From contig CALMYL010000011.1 of the NCBI GenBank assembly GCA_937873695.1, forward strand, positions 1-64,000: a DNA stretch of 64,000 nt, read 5' to 3'. Each line of letters opens with the position of its first letter. Position 1 is the first letter of the stretch. The DNA is from an uncultured Ignavibacteria bacterium (GTDB lineage Bacteria > Bacteroidota > Ignavibacteria > Tepidaquicellales > OLB5). Made by a program: the position numbers and the translations under genes. Positions 8,948-55,173 of this stretch are shown piece after piece. The notes beneath the pieces were generated by a model. It ran no database searches. It saw only the letters and a program-made list of their open reading frames with translations, and was not told the origin of the DNA.

Positions 8948-10423
8948 ATGAATAAAAATACTCAATATAACCTGAAATCCAGCCAAAAGTTTAAAGTTAT
9001 GCTAATTTTAATTTTAAGTTTATTGTTTTGCAGATATGCATACAGTCAAAGTATTACATGGCAGCGGACATATGATGGACCATATGTTGTAGATTATGGA
9101 TACGAAATCCTACCTGCACCCAATAATGAATTTTATTTAACGGGTTACTTATCAAATACAAATGACTATGCTTATGTTATAAAACTTAACCAGTTTGGAG
9201 ACACGTTATGGAGTAAAAAAGTATTTGCGGGGAACAATGGCAGAGTCTACAGTGCAACAAATTCATCAGACGGAGGATGCGTCTTTGCTATTGAAATGTC
9301 AGATTCTTCACTTCTGGTAAAGTTAGACCCTGATGGTAATGTGATTTGGGCTAAAGGTTCAAATGTATCAGCAACAATATGGGAAATTAAATTAGTTTCA
9401 GATGGCGGTTTTATAGCTTGTGGCAATCAAAGCCTTGTCGGCTATGTGGCTAAATATAATTCCACAGGTGAAATGGTTTGGCATCGTCAGTATTCAGGAG
9501 GTTCAGGGAAAAGTTTTCAATCAGTTCTCGAAAAAACCGGAGAAGGTTATATACTAACAGGTGATATAGATTTGCGACCAGTTGTTGATTCTGCTAAAGC
9601 TCTGTTGACAAAACTTGACTATACAGGAAATATTATTACTGAAAAGTATTTTGGTGCTGATAAATTATCTATAGGTATTAAAATAACTGAAACTGGAAAT
9701 GATTTACTTATTGGTGGAAATTGCTTCCTTAATACGAATGATAATAAAATTTTTATATTAAGAATTAACGAAAATCTTGTACTATTACAAACTAAAATCT
9801 TACCGCATAGTGCATCTACAGACGAATTCTTGGATGATTTTGAAGTTGTAAATAATAACAGATATATTATTTGTAACAGGCTTGATACAAACCAGCCTGT
9901 TTTTCAAACCCATGCTAAAGTTAGGATACTAGATTCAAATCTTAATATTACCCATCAGTGGTTGTCACCCAGTTATGGTTATTCATCTTTTACTTCGGTA
10001 ATTCCTTTAATTAACGGAGACCTTATTTTTGGCGGAACTTTTGAATATGGAACAGTTTGGGTTGAAAGAGGTTTTGATTATTATGCCGCAAGAACAGACA
10101 GTAATTTAAACCTGCCGCCATTGCCCCCAATTTCAATAAATTCCAATTCTAATGAAATTCCAATAACATCAACTATTTATCAAAATTATCCTAATCCATT
10201 CAATCCGGCAACTACAATAAAATACGAAATACCGAAGGACGCCGAGGTTACAATTAAAGTATATGACTTATTAGGCAGGGAAGTATTTAGTATTAATGAA
10301 TACAAAAAAGCCGGAAGTTATGAATTTCAGTTTGATGGTTCTAATTTTGCATCGGGTATGTATTTCTATGCATTCGAGGTTAATGGATATAAGGATACGA
10401 AAAAGATGGTTCTGGTTAAATAA
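8948..10423 (+). CDS. Secreted beta-propeller-like protein with T9SS sorting domain
   Basis: Product of 491 residues. The signal peptide is preceded by a longer basic N-terminus (MNKNTQYNLKSSQKFK). The body has recurring segments such as GYLSNTNDYAYVIKLNQFGDTLWSK and VKLDPDGNVIWAKG, a pattern of propeller repeats with D-x-GD/N-x-x-W turns found in many Bacteroidota surface proteins. It is not the YCF48 type of the three upstream genes. The last 90 residues are a sorting domain (NYPNPFNPATT ... KMVLVK). The gene is more AT-rich than its neighbours. Residue 1 is taken as the ATG at 8948; a start at the later in-frame ATG at 8999 is possible and would give a more standard signal peptide. Confidence 0.8.
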   Translation: MNKNTQYNLKSSQKFKVMLILILSLLFCRYAYSQSITWQRTYDGPYVVDYGYEILPAPNNEFYLTGYLSNTNDYAYVIKLNQFGDTLWSKKVFAGNNGRVYSATNSSDGGCVFAIEMSDSSLLVKLDPDGNVIWAKGSNVSATIWEIKLVSDGGFIACGNQSLVGYVAKYNSTGEMVWHRQYSGGSGKSFQSVLEKTGEGYILTGDIDLRPVVDSAKALLTKLDYTGNIITEKYFGADKLSIGIKITETGNDLLIGGNCFLNTNDNKIFILRINENLVLLQTKILPHSASTDEFLDDFEVVNNNRYIICNRLDTNQPVFQTHAKVRILDSNLNITHQWLSPSYGYSSFTSVIPLINGDLIFGGTFEYGTVWVERGFDYYAARTDSNLNLPPLPPISINSNSNEIPITSTIYQNYPNPFNPATTIKYEIPKDAEVTIKVYDLLGREVFSINEYKKAGSYEFQFDGSNFASGMYFYAFEVNGYKDTKKMVLVK

Positions 10424-41843: not shown

Positions 41844-41997
41844 GTTTGATTAACATCATAAATAGGGCTTTAGCCCTGATTTCTGTAGCTTTATTAAAGA
41901 CAAAAGCAGTTCAGTTATTTTTATCATTTCTTTAAAACAATCTGAATACATTTATGTACAGACAGGAATCTCTGTGCTGCTAATTGGAATAAAATTT

Positions 41998-42720
41998 ATG
42001 TTCAAAGATAAAGTAGCAATCGTAACGGGCGGCACGGGAGCATTAGGCAGGGTAATTGTCAATCATTTTGCGGCTCAGGGGATGAAGGTCTATGTTCCTG
42101 TGCGCTCAATGCCTGAATTTATGAAGGTTTTTGAGCAAAATGATGAAGCAGAGTTCCGGGGATTACCCAAGCGTTACGGATTGCCATGTGATGCCACCAA
42201 TGAAGGAGAAGTAAAGGAATTCTGCGATAATGTGGTTAAGCAGGAAAAACGGATTGATTTCCTTATCAACACCGTCGGTGGTTATCACCCCAAAAAAATG
42301 ATAGCTGATACTGACAGAGAGCTTATTGAGAAGCAGCTAATGCTGAACTTCTACACTACGTTTAACTTTACGAAGCACGCATTAACTTATTTCAAAATAA
42401 ATAACTTCGGGCGGGTTGTCTCGATCGGAGCTAAGCCCGCAGTTGAAACAACTGCCGGCAAGTTTGCATATTCATTCAGCAAAGCAGGAGTAATAAATCT
42501 GATGCAAACCCTCGTCGAAGAGCATAAGGCGGATAATATCACATTCAATTCCATCATACCAAGTGTTATTGATACTCCGGCAAATCGCGAAAGCATGCAG
42601 AACCAGGACTTTTCGACTTGGGTAACTCCACAGGAAATTGCCGAAACATGTTTATTTTTGATGGGGGATGGAGCGAGATCATTCAGGGGTAATGTTGTGA
42701 AGATGTATGGGGCAGCGTGA
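41998..42720 (+). CDS. Short-chain dehydrogenase/reductase
   Basis: Product of 240 residues from the ATG at 41998 (MFKDKVAIVTGGTGALG); the frame is open from 41974 but the shorter start gives the usual SDR N-terminus. The NAD(P) motif TGGTGALG is near residues 9-16, NTVGG corresponds to the NAG-type loop, and the catalytic Tyr-x3-Lys is YSFSKAG (Tyr and Lys present); a serine precedes it at VVSIGAK. The substrate is unknown. Palindrome-rich DNA precedes it and an AT-rich module follows, so it is at the edge of an accessory region. Confidence 0.82.
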   Translation: MFKDKVAIVTGGTGALGRVIVNHFAAQGMKVYVPVRSMPEFMKVFEQNDEAEFRGLPKRYGLPCDATNEGEVKEFCDNVVKQEKRIDFLINTVGGYHPKKMIADTDRELIEKQLMLNFYTTFNFTKHALTYFKINNFGRVVSIGAKPAVETTAGKFAYSFSKAGVINLMQTLVEEHKADNITFNSIIPSVIDTPANRESMQNQDFSTWVTPQEIAETCLFLMGDGARSFRGNVVKMYGAA

Positions 42721-42766
42721 TAAAAAATAAGGTGTTTTTTAAACTCATTTTTAATTAATTTGAATT

Positions 42767-44008
42767 ATGAAGAGTAACAATTTTTACATATCTAGTGTTA
42801 GCATAACTGATTACAAATCAATCCAAGAAGTGGAAGTTGAATTAGATGATAGTCTAGCAATAATAATCGGACCTAATGGCGCAGGAAAGTCTAATTTTCT
42901 AGAAGTTCTAAATCATATTGGTTATAATCAAATTCTTTTTCCGCGAGGATTAAATAATGTCCCACGAAATTTAAGCTATTCTGTTACGTTCAAGAGGAAC
43001 TCTAAAGAAAAAGTAAAAGAAGTTATATTATCGATTTCACCTACAACTAATCTTAAAGACAAAAACAACGAATTCCTTTCTTTTAATGTAACCGTTATAA
43101 TGAAAAGTGAAGGTGAAGATAACAAAGAATTGACTTTTAATACTTCAAATGAAGAGGATACACAAACCAAATTAATTGAAATAAGAAAAGAAGTCCGACC
43201 ATTATTGAATAATTTTGTTAGATTTATTAAATATAATTTTGACTATAACTCTGTTTTTTTGAGTAAACCGCAATCTTATATCTTCAATAAACGAAACGAA
43301 ACCATAGATGCTAAAGAAAAAATAGATGGAAGTTTATTCTTGCTTAGGTATTTGAATTTAAGATATCAGTTTTCAATGGATGATGAGATAACGGATATAA
43401 TTACTTCGGAAGGTACTGTTGATGAAAATCTCATAATTGAAAATAAAATACGAGAAATATTGTTGACTGAATTTAATGACACAATAAACGAAAGTGTGAG
43501 AGAGGATTTTGCAACATACAGCCCCATCAAAGATATTAGATTAAGCAAGAATATTAATGTCAATCTAAACGAGGATAATATTATTATATCAAATATTATT
43601 ATGGAATTCAATGTTAATGATGATTGGGTTCCTTGGGATTGGCTTTCTGATGGAACTAAAAGATTATTTTATATAATTTCTGAAGTCTCTTTAACTTATG
43701 GTGGAATAATTTTAATTGAAGAACCTGAACTTGGTATACATCCTCATCAGTTACATATATTAATGGATTATATAAAAAGCAAATCTACTAATAATCAATT
43801 TATTATCTCTACACATTCACCCCAAGTTTTAAATTGCCTTAAACCCAATGAATTAGAAAAAATCATTATTTCGAAGATGTCTCAAAATGGATCAACATTT
43901 AGACATTTGAATGAAGTTGAAATTAAGAAAGCAAATGTGTATATGAAGGAAGTAGGTTATCTCAGTCAATATTGGTTGCATTCGACGTTAGAGGATGAGA
44001 ATGACTAA
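42767..44008 (+). CDS. AAA/ABC-type ATPase of an OLD/RloA/PARIS-like defence pair
   Basis: Product of 413 residues. N-terminal Walker A GPNGAGKSNFLE near residues 34-45, as in SMC-like AAA_15/AAA_21 ATPases; ABC-type signature WLSDGTKRLF, Walker B ILIEEPELGIHPHQ and switch histidine ISTHSPQVL in the C-terminal half. No nuclease motif is visible in this protein itself. The next gene, overlapping by 8-14 bp, is a small protein with TOPRIM-like acidic motifs. The pair resembles split OLD, RloA-RloB or PARIS (AriA-AriB) modules by organisation; family membership is inferred. The gene is conspicuously AT-rich compared with its surroundings, which suggests acquisition by transfer. Confidence 0.78.
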   Translation: MKSNNFYISSVSITDYKSIQEVEVELDDSLAIIIGPNGAGKSNFLEVLNHIGYNQILFPRGLNNVPRNLSYSVTFKRNSKEKVKEVILSISPTTNLKDKNNEFLSFNVTVIMKSEGEDNKELTFNTSNEEDTQTKLIEIRKEVRPLLNNFVRFIKYNFDYNSVFLSKPQSYIFNKRNETIDAKEKIDGSLFLLRYLNLRYQFSMDDEITDIITSEGTVDENLIIENKIREILLTEFNDTINESVREDFATYSPIKDIRLSKNINVNLNEDNIIISNIIMEFNVNDDWVPWDWLSDGTKRLFYIISEVSLTYGGIILIEEPELGIHPHQLHILMDYIKSKSTNNQFIISTHSPQVLNCLKPNELEKIIISKMSQNGSTFRHLNEVEIKKANVYMKEVGYLSQYWLHSTLEDEND

Positions 44009-44582
44009 ATTAAAAATAGGTTTGATTGGTGAAGACCCTAATGATACAAACTCTATACAGAATTTATTAATTCGAAAATATTCTGAAAAAGTATATTTCA
44101 AAAAATTGATAAGAAATATAAAAGGGTTCTATTTGGACAATCCTAAAACACTACGCTCTTTAGAGATAGAATTTGAGGATCAAAAGCCTTTTTTTGTAAT
44201 TGTGATAAGGGATTTAGATGGATTACCAGAAGATAGTGCAAAAATAGGAGTAATAACAAACTGGTTTGATTCAATTAATAAGAAGCTCAATAACACGGGC
44301 ATTTTTTTACTAAATATTTTTGAATTAGAAGCTCTGATTTTTGCAAATATTGATGTGTTTAATAAAGCATATAAAACTAAGATCAAACAAAATAGGAATC
44401 CTATGTATATTAAGGAACCAAAGGAAGAATTAATGAGGAAATCAAGGCAAGTGAATATTAAAAAGGAATATGAAGAGAGTCACGCACCAGCTATATTCGA
44501 AAAACTAGATTTAGATGTTTTGGCAAAAAATTGTTTGTACTTCAGGCAATTTATGGATGCTTTTGAGAAACAATTGAGCTAA
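43995..44582 (+). CDS. Small TOPRIM-like (possible nuclease) partner of the AAA ATPase
   Basis: Product of 195 residues (or 193 from ATG 44001, which has GAGGA at better spacing). It begins LKIGLIGEDPNDTNSIQNLL, placing a Glu (Glu13) where TOPRIM folds carry their first acid; Asp73-Leu-Asp75 in FVIVIRDLDGL matches the D-x-D of TOPRIM; FELEALIFANI and LKN-like helices follow. This resembles DUF4276/DUF4435/RloB-type small TOPRIM proteins, but I cannot assign the exact family. It overlaps the ATPase gene, so the two are probably translated together. It shares the same AT-rich base composition. A nuclease that cuts host RNA or DNA after phage sensing is the leading hypothesis. Confidence 0.68.
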   Translation: MRMTKLKIGLIGEDPNDTNSIQNLLIRKYSEKVYFKKLIRNIKGFYLDNPKTLRSLEIEFEDQKPFFVIVIRDLDGLPEDSAKIGVITNWFDSINKKLNNTGIFLLNIFELEALIFANIDVFNKAYKTKIKQNRNPMYIKEPKEELMRKSRQVNIKKEYEESHAPAIFEKLDLDVLAKNCLYFRQFMDAFEKQLS

Positions 44583-44617
44583 ATCGTTATGAATAACATT
44601 TTAAAAAACGCAATTCG

Positions 44618-45568
44618 TCAATACTTATAATCGATCCTAAGGATCTTCAGTTTATTTTCGTCTGTAGCCGCATAAATAAACTTACCATCTACTACCGCTA
44701 TCCTGTTCAATTTATCTTTGAATTTATAGTTCCCCGCAAAATAATATGAGCCCGGAGAGTCGTTGTAAAATCCTTCAATTGACTTATCATCGGCTACCCA
44801 TACATAAAAATTCGAAGCAACTACCTGGTGTGAGTTCTTCCTGCCGAAGATGTTAAATTCCCATTTGGGGTTGGGCAGTTTGGAAATATCAAGCACCTGC
44901 ACTCCAGTAGAGCCCTGCGGAATGTACGCGGTAATGCCATCTACATATGGCTCATAAAAGCTGGAGCCTGAGCTGTATGAACCGACAATTTGTAATGTTG
45001 ATTTATCCGCAACATCGATAATTGAAAGATTTCCGCTTGAGCTTGATATATATGCTTTATTATTTGATACAAATAAGCCATTTGAATTAAATGGTACTAT
45101 CTGTGTGTTTTTGTAAACGGGAAAGTCAGCTACATTTACATCATAAACCTGCAAACCGGCGTCTTCGTTGAGAGCATATAGATAACCTTTATCTATCACA
45201 ATTTTCTTTACAGATCCGTTAATGCTGATAGATGTCCTTTTTGCTATTGGTGATTTGGAGAAATCAAAAACACCAATAGAATTATTGGAATAAAGGGCGT
45301 AACAAAAATGTCCAATGAACGCAATACTCTTTGCCCCGCTAATTTCGCTTAATTCAGTTGCAGTTATATTATAGGGGTCTTTGATCGAAACCGCGTAAAC
45401 TGATCCTTGTGTGATTACGTATGCATTATCAAATAATACTATATCATAGGGTTCGTTTGTGAATTTGACCTCATTTATCTGTTCTAAATATATCTTACCG
45501 GCCATTGTATTGCTGAATAAGGGCGAAAGAACCAGAATTACAAGTAATGCTAAGAGAGCGTTTTTCAT
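44618..45568 (-). CDS. Exported beta-propeller protein (LVIVD-like repeats)
   Basis: Product of 316 residues. Signal peptide MKNALLALLVILVLSPLFSNTMAG, then repeats with GYLYALNEDAGLQVYDV, KAYISSSSGNLSIIDVADKS and GSTGVQVLDISKLPN, the pattern of LVIVD-repeat propellers. No T9SS tail and no lipobox are seen, so a periplasmic location is most likely. It converges on the ATPase/TOPRIM pair with 35 bp between the stop codons. Role unknown. Confidence 0.7.
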   Translation of the reverse strand: MKNALLALLVILVLSPLFSNTMAGKIYLEQINEVKFTNEPYDIVLFDNAYVITQGSVYAVSIKDPYNITATELSEISGAKSIAFIGHFCYALYSNNSIGVFDFSKSPIAKRTSISINGSVKKIVIDKGYLYALNEDAGLQVYDVNVADFPVYKNTQIVPFNSNGLFVSNNKAYISSSSGNLSIIDVADKSTLQIVGSYSSGSSFYEPYVDGITAYIPQGSTGVQVLDISKLPNPKWEFNIFGRKNSHQVVASNFYVWVADDKSIEGFYNDSPGSYYFAGNYKFKDKLNRIAVVDGKFIYAATDENKLKILRIDYKY

Positions 45569-54157: not shown

Positions 54158-54676
54158 ATGAAAAATCTAACTTCTGTATTAATTCTGCTCTTGCTGCTCT
54201 CATTTACTTCAATGAGTTTTGATTCAAAGGATGATTATTCAAATGAAAGCATCGGTAAAATTTCAGGGGCTTTCCTGGAAGGCAAACTTGATTTTGAAAA
54301 CCCTGTAATGGTAGATGTAGATAAGGACGGAGATTTTGACGCCCTGAAGTTTGATAATGGCAATGTTTCTTATTATAAGAATTTAGGTACAAACGAGAAT
54401 CCATCTTTTGTGCTGGAAAATGAAAATTATGAAACTTACAGCCGCACTTTTTTTATAGATCCTAAGATGCCCTATCCTATGTTCTTTGCTGATAAAGATG
54501 GCGATGGCGATATGGATATGTTTGTTGTGAAGGATAAACAATACAATAAGCAGCAGCAGAAATATGAGTATAAAGTTTCAAACGCTGAAAACTCGATGGA
54601 TCTAAGCACCGGAACCCTGATAACAATAATACTGGTATTGGTAATTGTGCTGCTTGTTCTTGCGATAATAAGGTAA
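54158..54676 (+). CDS. Exported protein with calcium-binding-like motifs and a C-terminal membrane anchor
   Basis: Product of 172 residues. N-terminal signal peptide (MKNLTSVLILLLLLSFTSMS), two acidic repeats DVDKDGDFDALKF and DKDGDGDMDMFVV, which match the D-x-D-G-D-x-D pattern of FG-GAP/VCBS or calcium-binding loops, and a C-terminal hydrophobic helix (LITIILVLVIVLLVLAII) ending in Arg. A protein anchored by its C-terminus after export is unusual. The family is not recognised. Confidence 0.7.
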   Translation: MKNLTSVLILLLLLSFTSMSFDSKDDYSNESIGKISGAFLEGKLDFENPVMVDVDKDGDFDALKFDNGNVSYYKNLGTNENPSFVLENENYETYSRTFFIDPKMPYPMFFADKDGDGDMDMFVVKDKQYNKQQQKYEYKVSNAENSMDLSTGTLITIILVLVIVLLVLAIIR

Positions 54677-54700
54677 TATTTATGATATGATTTTAGATAT

Positions 54701-54737
54701 AAAAAATGGGAGTGTCCGGCTCCCATTTGTTTTTTTT
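54701..54737. terminator. Bidirectional terminator
   Basis: AAATGGGAG / CTCCCATTT with A-run on the left and a run of eight T on the right, between two converging genes. Confidence 0.85.
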
Positions 54738-54750
54738 GATTTATGGTTAT

Positions 54751-55173
54751 TTATTCAATAATTACCTTTGAACTTTCCTGCACATCTGCAGAAGAAAGAA
54801 CACAGGTATAATTTCCTTTATCCAGGTTTGTTGAATTGATATTTATTTCATAAGTTCCTGCCTTCAGGTTATTATATAAATAAGTTCTGATAAGATTATT
54901 GTTATTATCATAAAGACCTATCTTTACGAATGATACTTCAGGAAGCTCAAATTTTATCACATTCTGTGAATATTGATATATTCTGTAATTGGCATTGGTA
55001 TTGATCCTGCTTTCAGTTCCGGCCACTGAACCATCCGGGAAATTGACTTCTTTGAATTGCTGAGCAAATAGAATATTTGTGTTCGCAAAAATGGACAAAG
55101 CGATCATCATTGCGAATGCAAGTATTATATTGAATTTTTGTAACCTTTTGTTTTTTAATTCCATTGATGACAT
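54751..55173 (-). CDS. Small secreted protein consisting mainly of a T9SS-tail-like domain
   Basis: Product of 140 residues. A signal peptide ends near ILFAQQ. The rest has the spacing of a Por_Secre_tail domain: VIKFELPEVSFVKIGLYDNNNN, NLKAGTYEININSTNLDKGNYTCVL and a final KVIIE. It lacks the NYPNPFNP leader seen in the other cargo and lacks any cargo domain. It may be a solitary immunoglobulin-like domain, a remnant, or a T9SS accessory. Confidence 0.65.
   Translation of the reverse strand: MSSMELKNKRLQKFNIILAFAMMIALSIFANTNILFAQQFKEVNFPDGSVAGTESRINTNANYRIYQYSQNVIKFELPEVSFVKIGLYDNNNNLIRTYLYNNLKAGTYEININSTNLDKGNYTCVLSSADVQESSKVIIE

Follow-up and report, generated by a model that had tools for sequence, protein, structure and literature searches.

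A putative HEC-01-type defence module of an OLD-like ATPase and a DUF4276 protein in a variable cargo slot of an Ignavibacteria genome

Introduction

Several bacterial systems join an OLD-like ATPase to a TOPRIM nuclease, either within one polypeptide, as in class 2 OLD nucleases and the Gabija protein GajA, or as the products of separate genes, as in PARIS. In the OLD nuclease of B. pseudomallei (Bp), two Mg2+ ions are bound by E400, E404, D455, D457, T506, and E508 (PMC6755086), and the equivalent residues of GajA are E379, E383, D432, D434, D511, and D513 (PMC10822852). In PARIS, the sensor AriA frees AriB, a Toprim endoribonuclease, in dimeric form, and AriB then cuts host tRNA (PMC12409363). 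The AbiL (AbiLi/AbiLii) and RloA-RloB systems likewise comprise an ATPase and a small TOPRIM-like protein, and AAA ATPase:TOPRIM_OLD pairs have been found to act as toxin and neutraliser in E. coli assays, their authors reading the pairs as likely defence systems (PMC10440598). A further type, HEC-01 (“Hma-embedded candidate”), combines an AAA_21 ATPase with a DUF4276 protein and is listed as a candidate in PADLOC-DB 2.0. HECs are candidates obtained through “guilt by embedding,” and several of them, including HEC-06, are antivirally active (PMC12988326). In the literature searched, which did not extend to the defining preprint (10.1101/2024.01.29.577857), no functional test or mechanism was found for HEC-01, and no experiment was found on any protein named as DUF4276.

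This article describes a pair of this kind in an uncultured Ignavibacteria bacterium, lying within a contiguous stretch of 64,000 nucleotides, here called the window. An earlier note, made from the sequence of this DNA, had read the pair as a candidate anti-phage defence module of an ATPase and a TOPRIM-like protein, and the analysis reported below supports that reading.

The Locus

The two genes and their surroundings are listed in Table 1. The ORF list agrees exactly with the frames that the earlier note had described, including a second product of 195 residues and an overlap of 8–14 bp, a range that arises because the DUF4276 gene has two alternative ATGs, the overlap being 14 bp from the first and 8 bp from the second (M3). 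The overlap is likely to provide translational coupling. Both ORFs are real genes and not chance ORFs, since their products match Pfam families above the cut-offs (1e-28 and 3e-12) and homologous adjacent pairs exist elsewhere.

Table 1. Features of the gene pair and its insertion site (positions within the window).
Feature	Position	Strand	Size	Prediction or distribution	Basis
Left flank, short-chain dehydrogenase gene	41974..42720	+		orthologue of at least 74% identity in 11/13 genus genomes	
AT-rich insert	42711..44617	.		absent from closest congener G011	alignment, repeat scan
OLD-like ABC ATPase gene	42767..44008	+	413 aa	predicted sensor/regulator	ORF list, Pfam, PADLOC, PDB relatives
Gene overlap	43995..44008	+	14 bp		ORF coordinates
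DUF4276 protein gene (predicted TOPRIM fold)	43995..44582	+	195 aa	predicted two-metal nuclease effector	Pfam, PADLOC, structure model
Right flank, beta-propeller/LVIVD-like exported protein gene	44618..45568	-		orthologue of at least 51% identity in 11/13 genus genomes	

The pair is also more AT-rich than its neighbours, as had been claimed for it: its G+C content is 28% against 38.5% for the 64-kb window, and its GC3 is 0.23–0.26 against 0.34–0.46 in neighbouring genes. The lowest-GC 1.8-kb stretch of the window begins no more than 70 bp from the pair, which ranks sixth of 1244 sliding positions. Two other parts of the window (8948–10423 and 54158–55173) are low in GC as well (31–33%); their genes encode small proteins of unknown kind or unremarkable exported proteins whose C-terminal tails are of the sorting type, and none is recognisable as a defence gene. 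No integrase was found among the ORFs near the insert, its edges carry no tRNA and no flanking direct or terminal repeats apparent in a repeat scan, and no further known defence genes were seen in the part of the window that was inspected.

The ATPase

Judged by its sequence, the 413-aa protein is an OLD-type ABC ATPase. Pfam AAA_21 (1e-28) and AAA_15 (4e-24) both match above their cut-offs, and the translation contains the Walker A motif GPNGAGKS, the signature LSDGT (S294-D295-G296-T297), and the switch histidine that the earlier note had picked out, the last being H350 of an STHS motif, together with EEPELGIHP in the Walker B region (318–326). These motifs are conserved in full-length close relatives, with small changes in Walker A (GKNAAGKT). 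The PADLOC models that match are those of HEC-01A (PDLC04175, 1.1e-30; PDLC04178, 1.8e-27; plus others), AriA (7e-30), AbiLi (3e-21), and PtuA (4e-19). The AriA match is apparently a generic signal of the AAA_21/AAA_15 type, because the AriA models, in their 304 positions and in score, resemble the profiles of those families. The closest PDB sequences are PtuA-type proteins (1e-13 to 1e-10), followed by AriA, GajA, and one OLD-family protein, and models of RecF, SMC, and Rad50 also match, weakly.

The DUF4276 Protein

DUF4276 is the sole Pfam match of the second protein (3.2e-12), its score of 47.5 bits exceeding the cut-off of 30.2. The PADLOC model of HEC-01B, PDLC04207, matches weakly (1.2e-7, 29 bits), as do five more HEC-01B models, and no sequence relatives were found in the PDB by phmmer or profile search. 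The fold was approached through profile comparison and structure prediction. Profiles of the wider DUF4276 family matched OLD-TOPRIM at 62%, with the motif-1 glutamate aligned, and RloB at 49%, compared with 0.4% for an SDR control. The link to TOPRIM runs through this wider family because the profile of the close subfamily, built from four sequences, is too thin, giving 0.2–3% against RloB, OLD-TOPRIM, and DUF4435.

An AlphaFold2 model built from a six-sequence input has a mean pLDDT of 74.8 and a pTM of 0.72; an earlier model from two sequences (pLDDT 44) was kept out of fold searching. In the six-sequence model, strand 6–12 ends at E13 and strand 66–72 ends at D73-L-D75, reproducing the core feature of TOPRIM domains, a beta-alpha-beta unit with a glutamate after strand 1 and a DxD after a later strand. 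Its best structural match is the C-terminal TOPRIM domain of B. pseudomallei OLD (6nk8; Z 7.5, rmsd 4.6, 165 residues aligned), followed by X. campestris OLD (Z 6.4–6.6), the PARIS AriB chain 8ux9_A (Z 6.1), and GajA (Z 5.0–6.0), and its top viral fold match is an RloB-like protein (probability 0.99). These scores are middling, as no Z is above 7.5 and Foldseek gave no PDB match with an E under 0.001, and non-TOPRIM Rossmann-like folds score close behind (lumazine synthase-type chains, Z 6 to 6.5). The Foldseek list from the PDB is by itself no proof of a TOPRIM fold, as the non-TOPRIM folds NVL, lumazine synthase, and KaiC rank in it at E 0.03–0.3. Despite the middling Z scores, the TOPRIM reading is strengthened by the repeated appearance of a single family among the highest-ranking matches and by the fit of the ligand residues.

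The candidate metal ligands are E13, D17, D73, D75, E110, and E112, and K143 or K149 is a candidate catalytic lysine. The glutamate, the D73-L-D75 motif, and the ELE block (E110-L-E112) that the earlier note had compared with TOPRIM folds are thus all present. By order and spacing, all six metal positions of Bp OLD have counterparts in the DUF4276 protein, E110 sitting in the position of T506; the spacing (E-x3-D ... D-x-D ... E-x-E) is the same in both, being 4 for E13/D17, 2 for D73/D75, and 2 for E110/E112. Within the close subfamily, all six ligands are kept in each of the four proteins that are intact, namely the window protein and those of genomes G008, G086, and G194, which are 38–46% identical to it. 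Conservation extends to more distant sequences: E13, D73, E110, and E112 are invariant in a six-sequence alignment at 17–37% identity, and among 30 aligned proteins of the wider DUF4276 family, equivalents of E13, D73, and E112 occur in every one and of E110 in 28. Together, the predicted structure and the ligand pattern support a TOPRIM fold for the DUF4276 protein, as the earlier note had proposed.

Comparison With Described Systems

Among described systems, the pair fits a divergent member of the HEC-01 type, by model matches taken without PADLOC's own coverage and score thresholds. HEC-01A and HEC-01B models match the respective proteins, whose genes lie side by side on the same strand with the ATPase first; in contrast to the candidates from which the type takes its name, the window pair is not embedded in Hma, and it belongs to a divergent subfamily with weak HEC-01B scores.

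The earlier note had named Gabija, RloA-RloB, and PARIS as systems to which the pair might belong, and for each of these a defining partner or feature is missing. PARIS shares separate genes for an OLD-like ATPase and a TOPRIM protein as well as the structural likeness to AriB, but the DUF4276 protein is not AriB/DUF4435, having 195 aa against the 306-residue chain in 8ux9; by AriB sequence PARIS was rejected, there being no AriB model match and a DUF4435 profile comparison of 0.2% with the thin four-sequence profile. RloA-RloB and AbiL resemble the pair in organisation, in the AbiLi match of the ATPase, and in the RloB-like viral fold match, but the second protein has no RloB (PF13707) or AbiLii match, and the RloB comparison likewise gave 0.2% with the thin profile. 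PtuA-type proteins of Septu and retron Ec78 are nearest to the ATPase in the PDB; the partner of PtuA in Septu is the HNH nuclease PtuB, and no HNH is present here. Wadjet and retrons were set aside because their partner genes are lacking.

Gabija and class 2 OLD nucleases have the same two modules and the corresponding six metal-site positions (PMC6755086, PMC10822852), but the window ATPase and TOPRIM protein are unfused, in two separate ORFs, and no GajB helicase occurs among the neighbouring genes. The likeness to these enzymes bears on how the module might act, since the best structural matches, 6nk8 and 6njw, are C-terminal domains of OLD proteins that cut DNA (PMC6755086). The pair could accordingly be a variant that restricts incoming DNA directly, in the manner of fused OLD or GajA, with survival of the host. 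This is the less likely form of a defence role: a small separate TOPRIM protein beside a stand-alone ATPase is the arrangement of PARIS, whose substrate is tRNA, a Gabija-type helicase partner is missing, and a substrate cannot be read from similarity of fold.

Insertion Site and Distribution

The pair has been gained recently, probably by horizontal transfer, into a small variable cargo slot between the dehydrogenase and propeller genes. In seven congeners (G011, G005, G002, G004, G010, G012, and G007) the slot is empty, the two flanking genes being 38–145 bp apart, and the alignment of the window to the closest of these, G011, halts at 42710 and restarts at 44618. With the lowest-GC region of the window at this point and homologues at other sites, the recent gain suggested by the earlier note is borne out, and the comparison of neighbours did not find a conserved non-defence context. 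Other genomes carry different cargo in the slot. In G003 (L061:2314-4388, G003:C45) it holds another AT-rich (23–28% GC) two-gene cassette, encoding a 260-aa protein with putAbiC (Pfam 1.5e-8) and a weak AbiP match and a 411-aa protein without a Pfam or PADLOC match, possibly an uncharacterised defence pair. The cargo in G009 (L062:1920-2333, G009:C2) is a DUF559 endonuclease-like gene. Both the putAbiC pair and the DUF559 gene are predicted to be defensive. The DUF559 gene is bracketed by a CTCCTG...CAGGAGGGGAGCT-type repeat sequence, which is also found in the empty G011 site.

A homologue occurs in one of the 12 congeners (G008, 38% identity, at a different site), and homologues of the subfamily occupy different genomic sites in each carrier. 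The close subfamily is patchy, being found in 5 of 395 genomes of the phylum, and DUF4276 overall occurs in 45 of the 247 genomes of a phylum sample. Intact subfamily pairs are present in G008, G086, and G194, and the order of ATPase then DUF4276 is kept in 4/4 close relatives. Across the phylum, in 29 of the 29 DUF4276 loci with upstream sequence, the DUF4276 match starts at or before the end of an OLD-like ATPase gene; in the phylum examined, DUF4276 is inseparable from such a gene. A decayed pair was seen in G151 (L086:3590-4451, G151:C4), where the TOPRIM gene is split into frames of 53 and 120 codons and a 98-codon 3' piece is all that is listed as open of the ATPase gene, a state that would fit the loss of a module that is costly to keep.

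Viral contigs carry pairs of the wider family as well. On L143 (1188-4668), an ATPase and DUF4276 pair has a phage repressor on one side and an integrase on the other, which is a typical cargo position, and on L145 a pair follows directly after a CI-like repressor. The close subfamily itself gave no match on plasmids or phages in tblastn with the TOPRIM protein, nor on viral contigs in scans with close-subfamily alignments. A scan of genome contigs with the window protein alone gave no match, and with a two-sequence alignment it matched only the record of G008 (Ignavibacteria bacterium).

The overlapping genes, their position as lone cargo between core genes, and their patchy distribution are features that a toxin-antitoxin-like addiction pair would also show, the DUF4276 protein being a toxin neutralised by the ATPase and the pair serving mainly its own selfish maintenance; the neutralisation of toxicity by AAA:TOPRIM_OLD pairs in E. 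coli (PMC10440598) points the same way. This explanation is improbable, although it overlaps mechanistically with defence. The authors of those assays favour a defence role, and defence is preferred here because the viral copies adjoin repressor and integrase genes and the slot is shared with the putAbiC pair. A housekeeping role in RNA or DNA processing (RNase M5-like, or RecF/SMC-like repair), to which the weak RecF/SMC/Rad50 matches of the ATPase and the same TOPRIM active-site geometry in M5 might point, is very improbable, as absence of homologues from 11 of the 12 congeners, sites that differ per carrier, and low GC are not the pattern of a housekeeping gene.

Discussion

The pair is most probably a compact defence module of the abortive-infection type, of the HEC-01 kind, in which an OLD ATPase is coupled with a separate TOPRIM nuclease and which was acquired horizontally into its slot. 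The simplest reading, by analogy with PARIS and AAA:TOPRIM_OLD pairs, is that the same logic may apply here, the ATPase serving as sensor and restraint and the DUF4276 protein as a two-metal nuclease. In such a scheme the ATPase would dimerise on ATP, bind the DUF4276 protein, and hold the nuclease inactive. A phage-derived cue, which might be a protein, a nucleic-acid structure, or a drop in NTP, would alter the state of the ATPase, and the nuclease would then be freed or licensed. With two Mg2+ ions at E13/D73/D75 and D17/E110/E112, it would cut nucleic acid, and infection would be aborted either by a halt of translation, if tRNA were cut as by AriB, or by destruction of DNA, as by OLD and GajA. 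Complex formation, sensing, nuclease activity, the substrate, and protection from phage are thus properties that we infer for the pair. On balance the substrate leans towards RNA (tRNA-like), and DNA is the less likely of the two.

The pairing of an ATPase with DUF4276 has already been catalogued as HEC-01; what this analysis adds is the evidence for DUF4276 as an OLD-type TOPRIM protein, together with the cargo slot. It is conceivable, and is put forward tentatively, that DUF4276 proteins form a branch of their own among separate TOPRIM effectors, with a divergent subfamily that has a trigger and target unlike those of PARIS and resides in small one-system cargo slots of Ignavibacteria. The dehydrogenase-propeller slot, which may be empty or hold the DUF4276 pair, the putAbiC pair, or DUF559, is a site to mine in Ignavibacteria. 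Pfam assigns DUF4276 no function and none of the literature searched mentions it by name; the evidence for a TOPRIM fold with a full OLD metal site provides this common family with a function that is directly testable, and the HEC-01 candidate type with a testable nuclease function.
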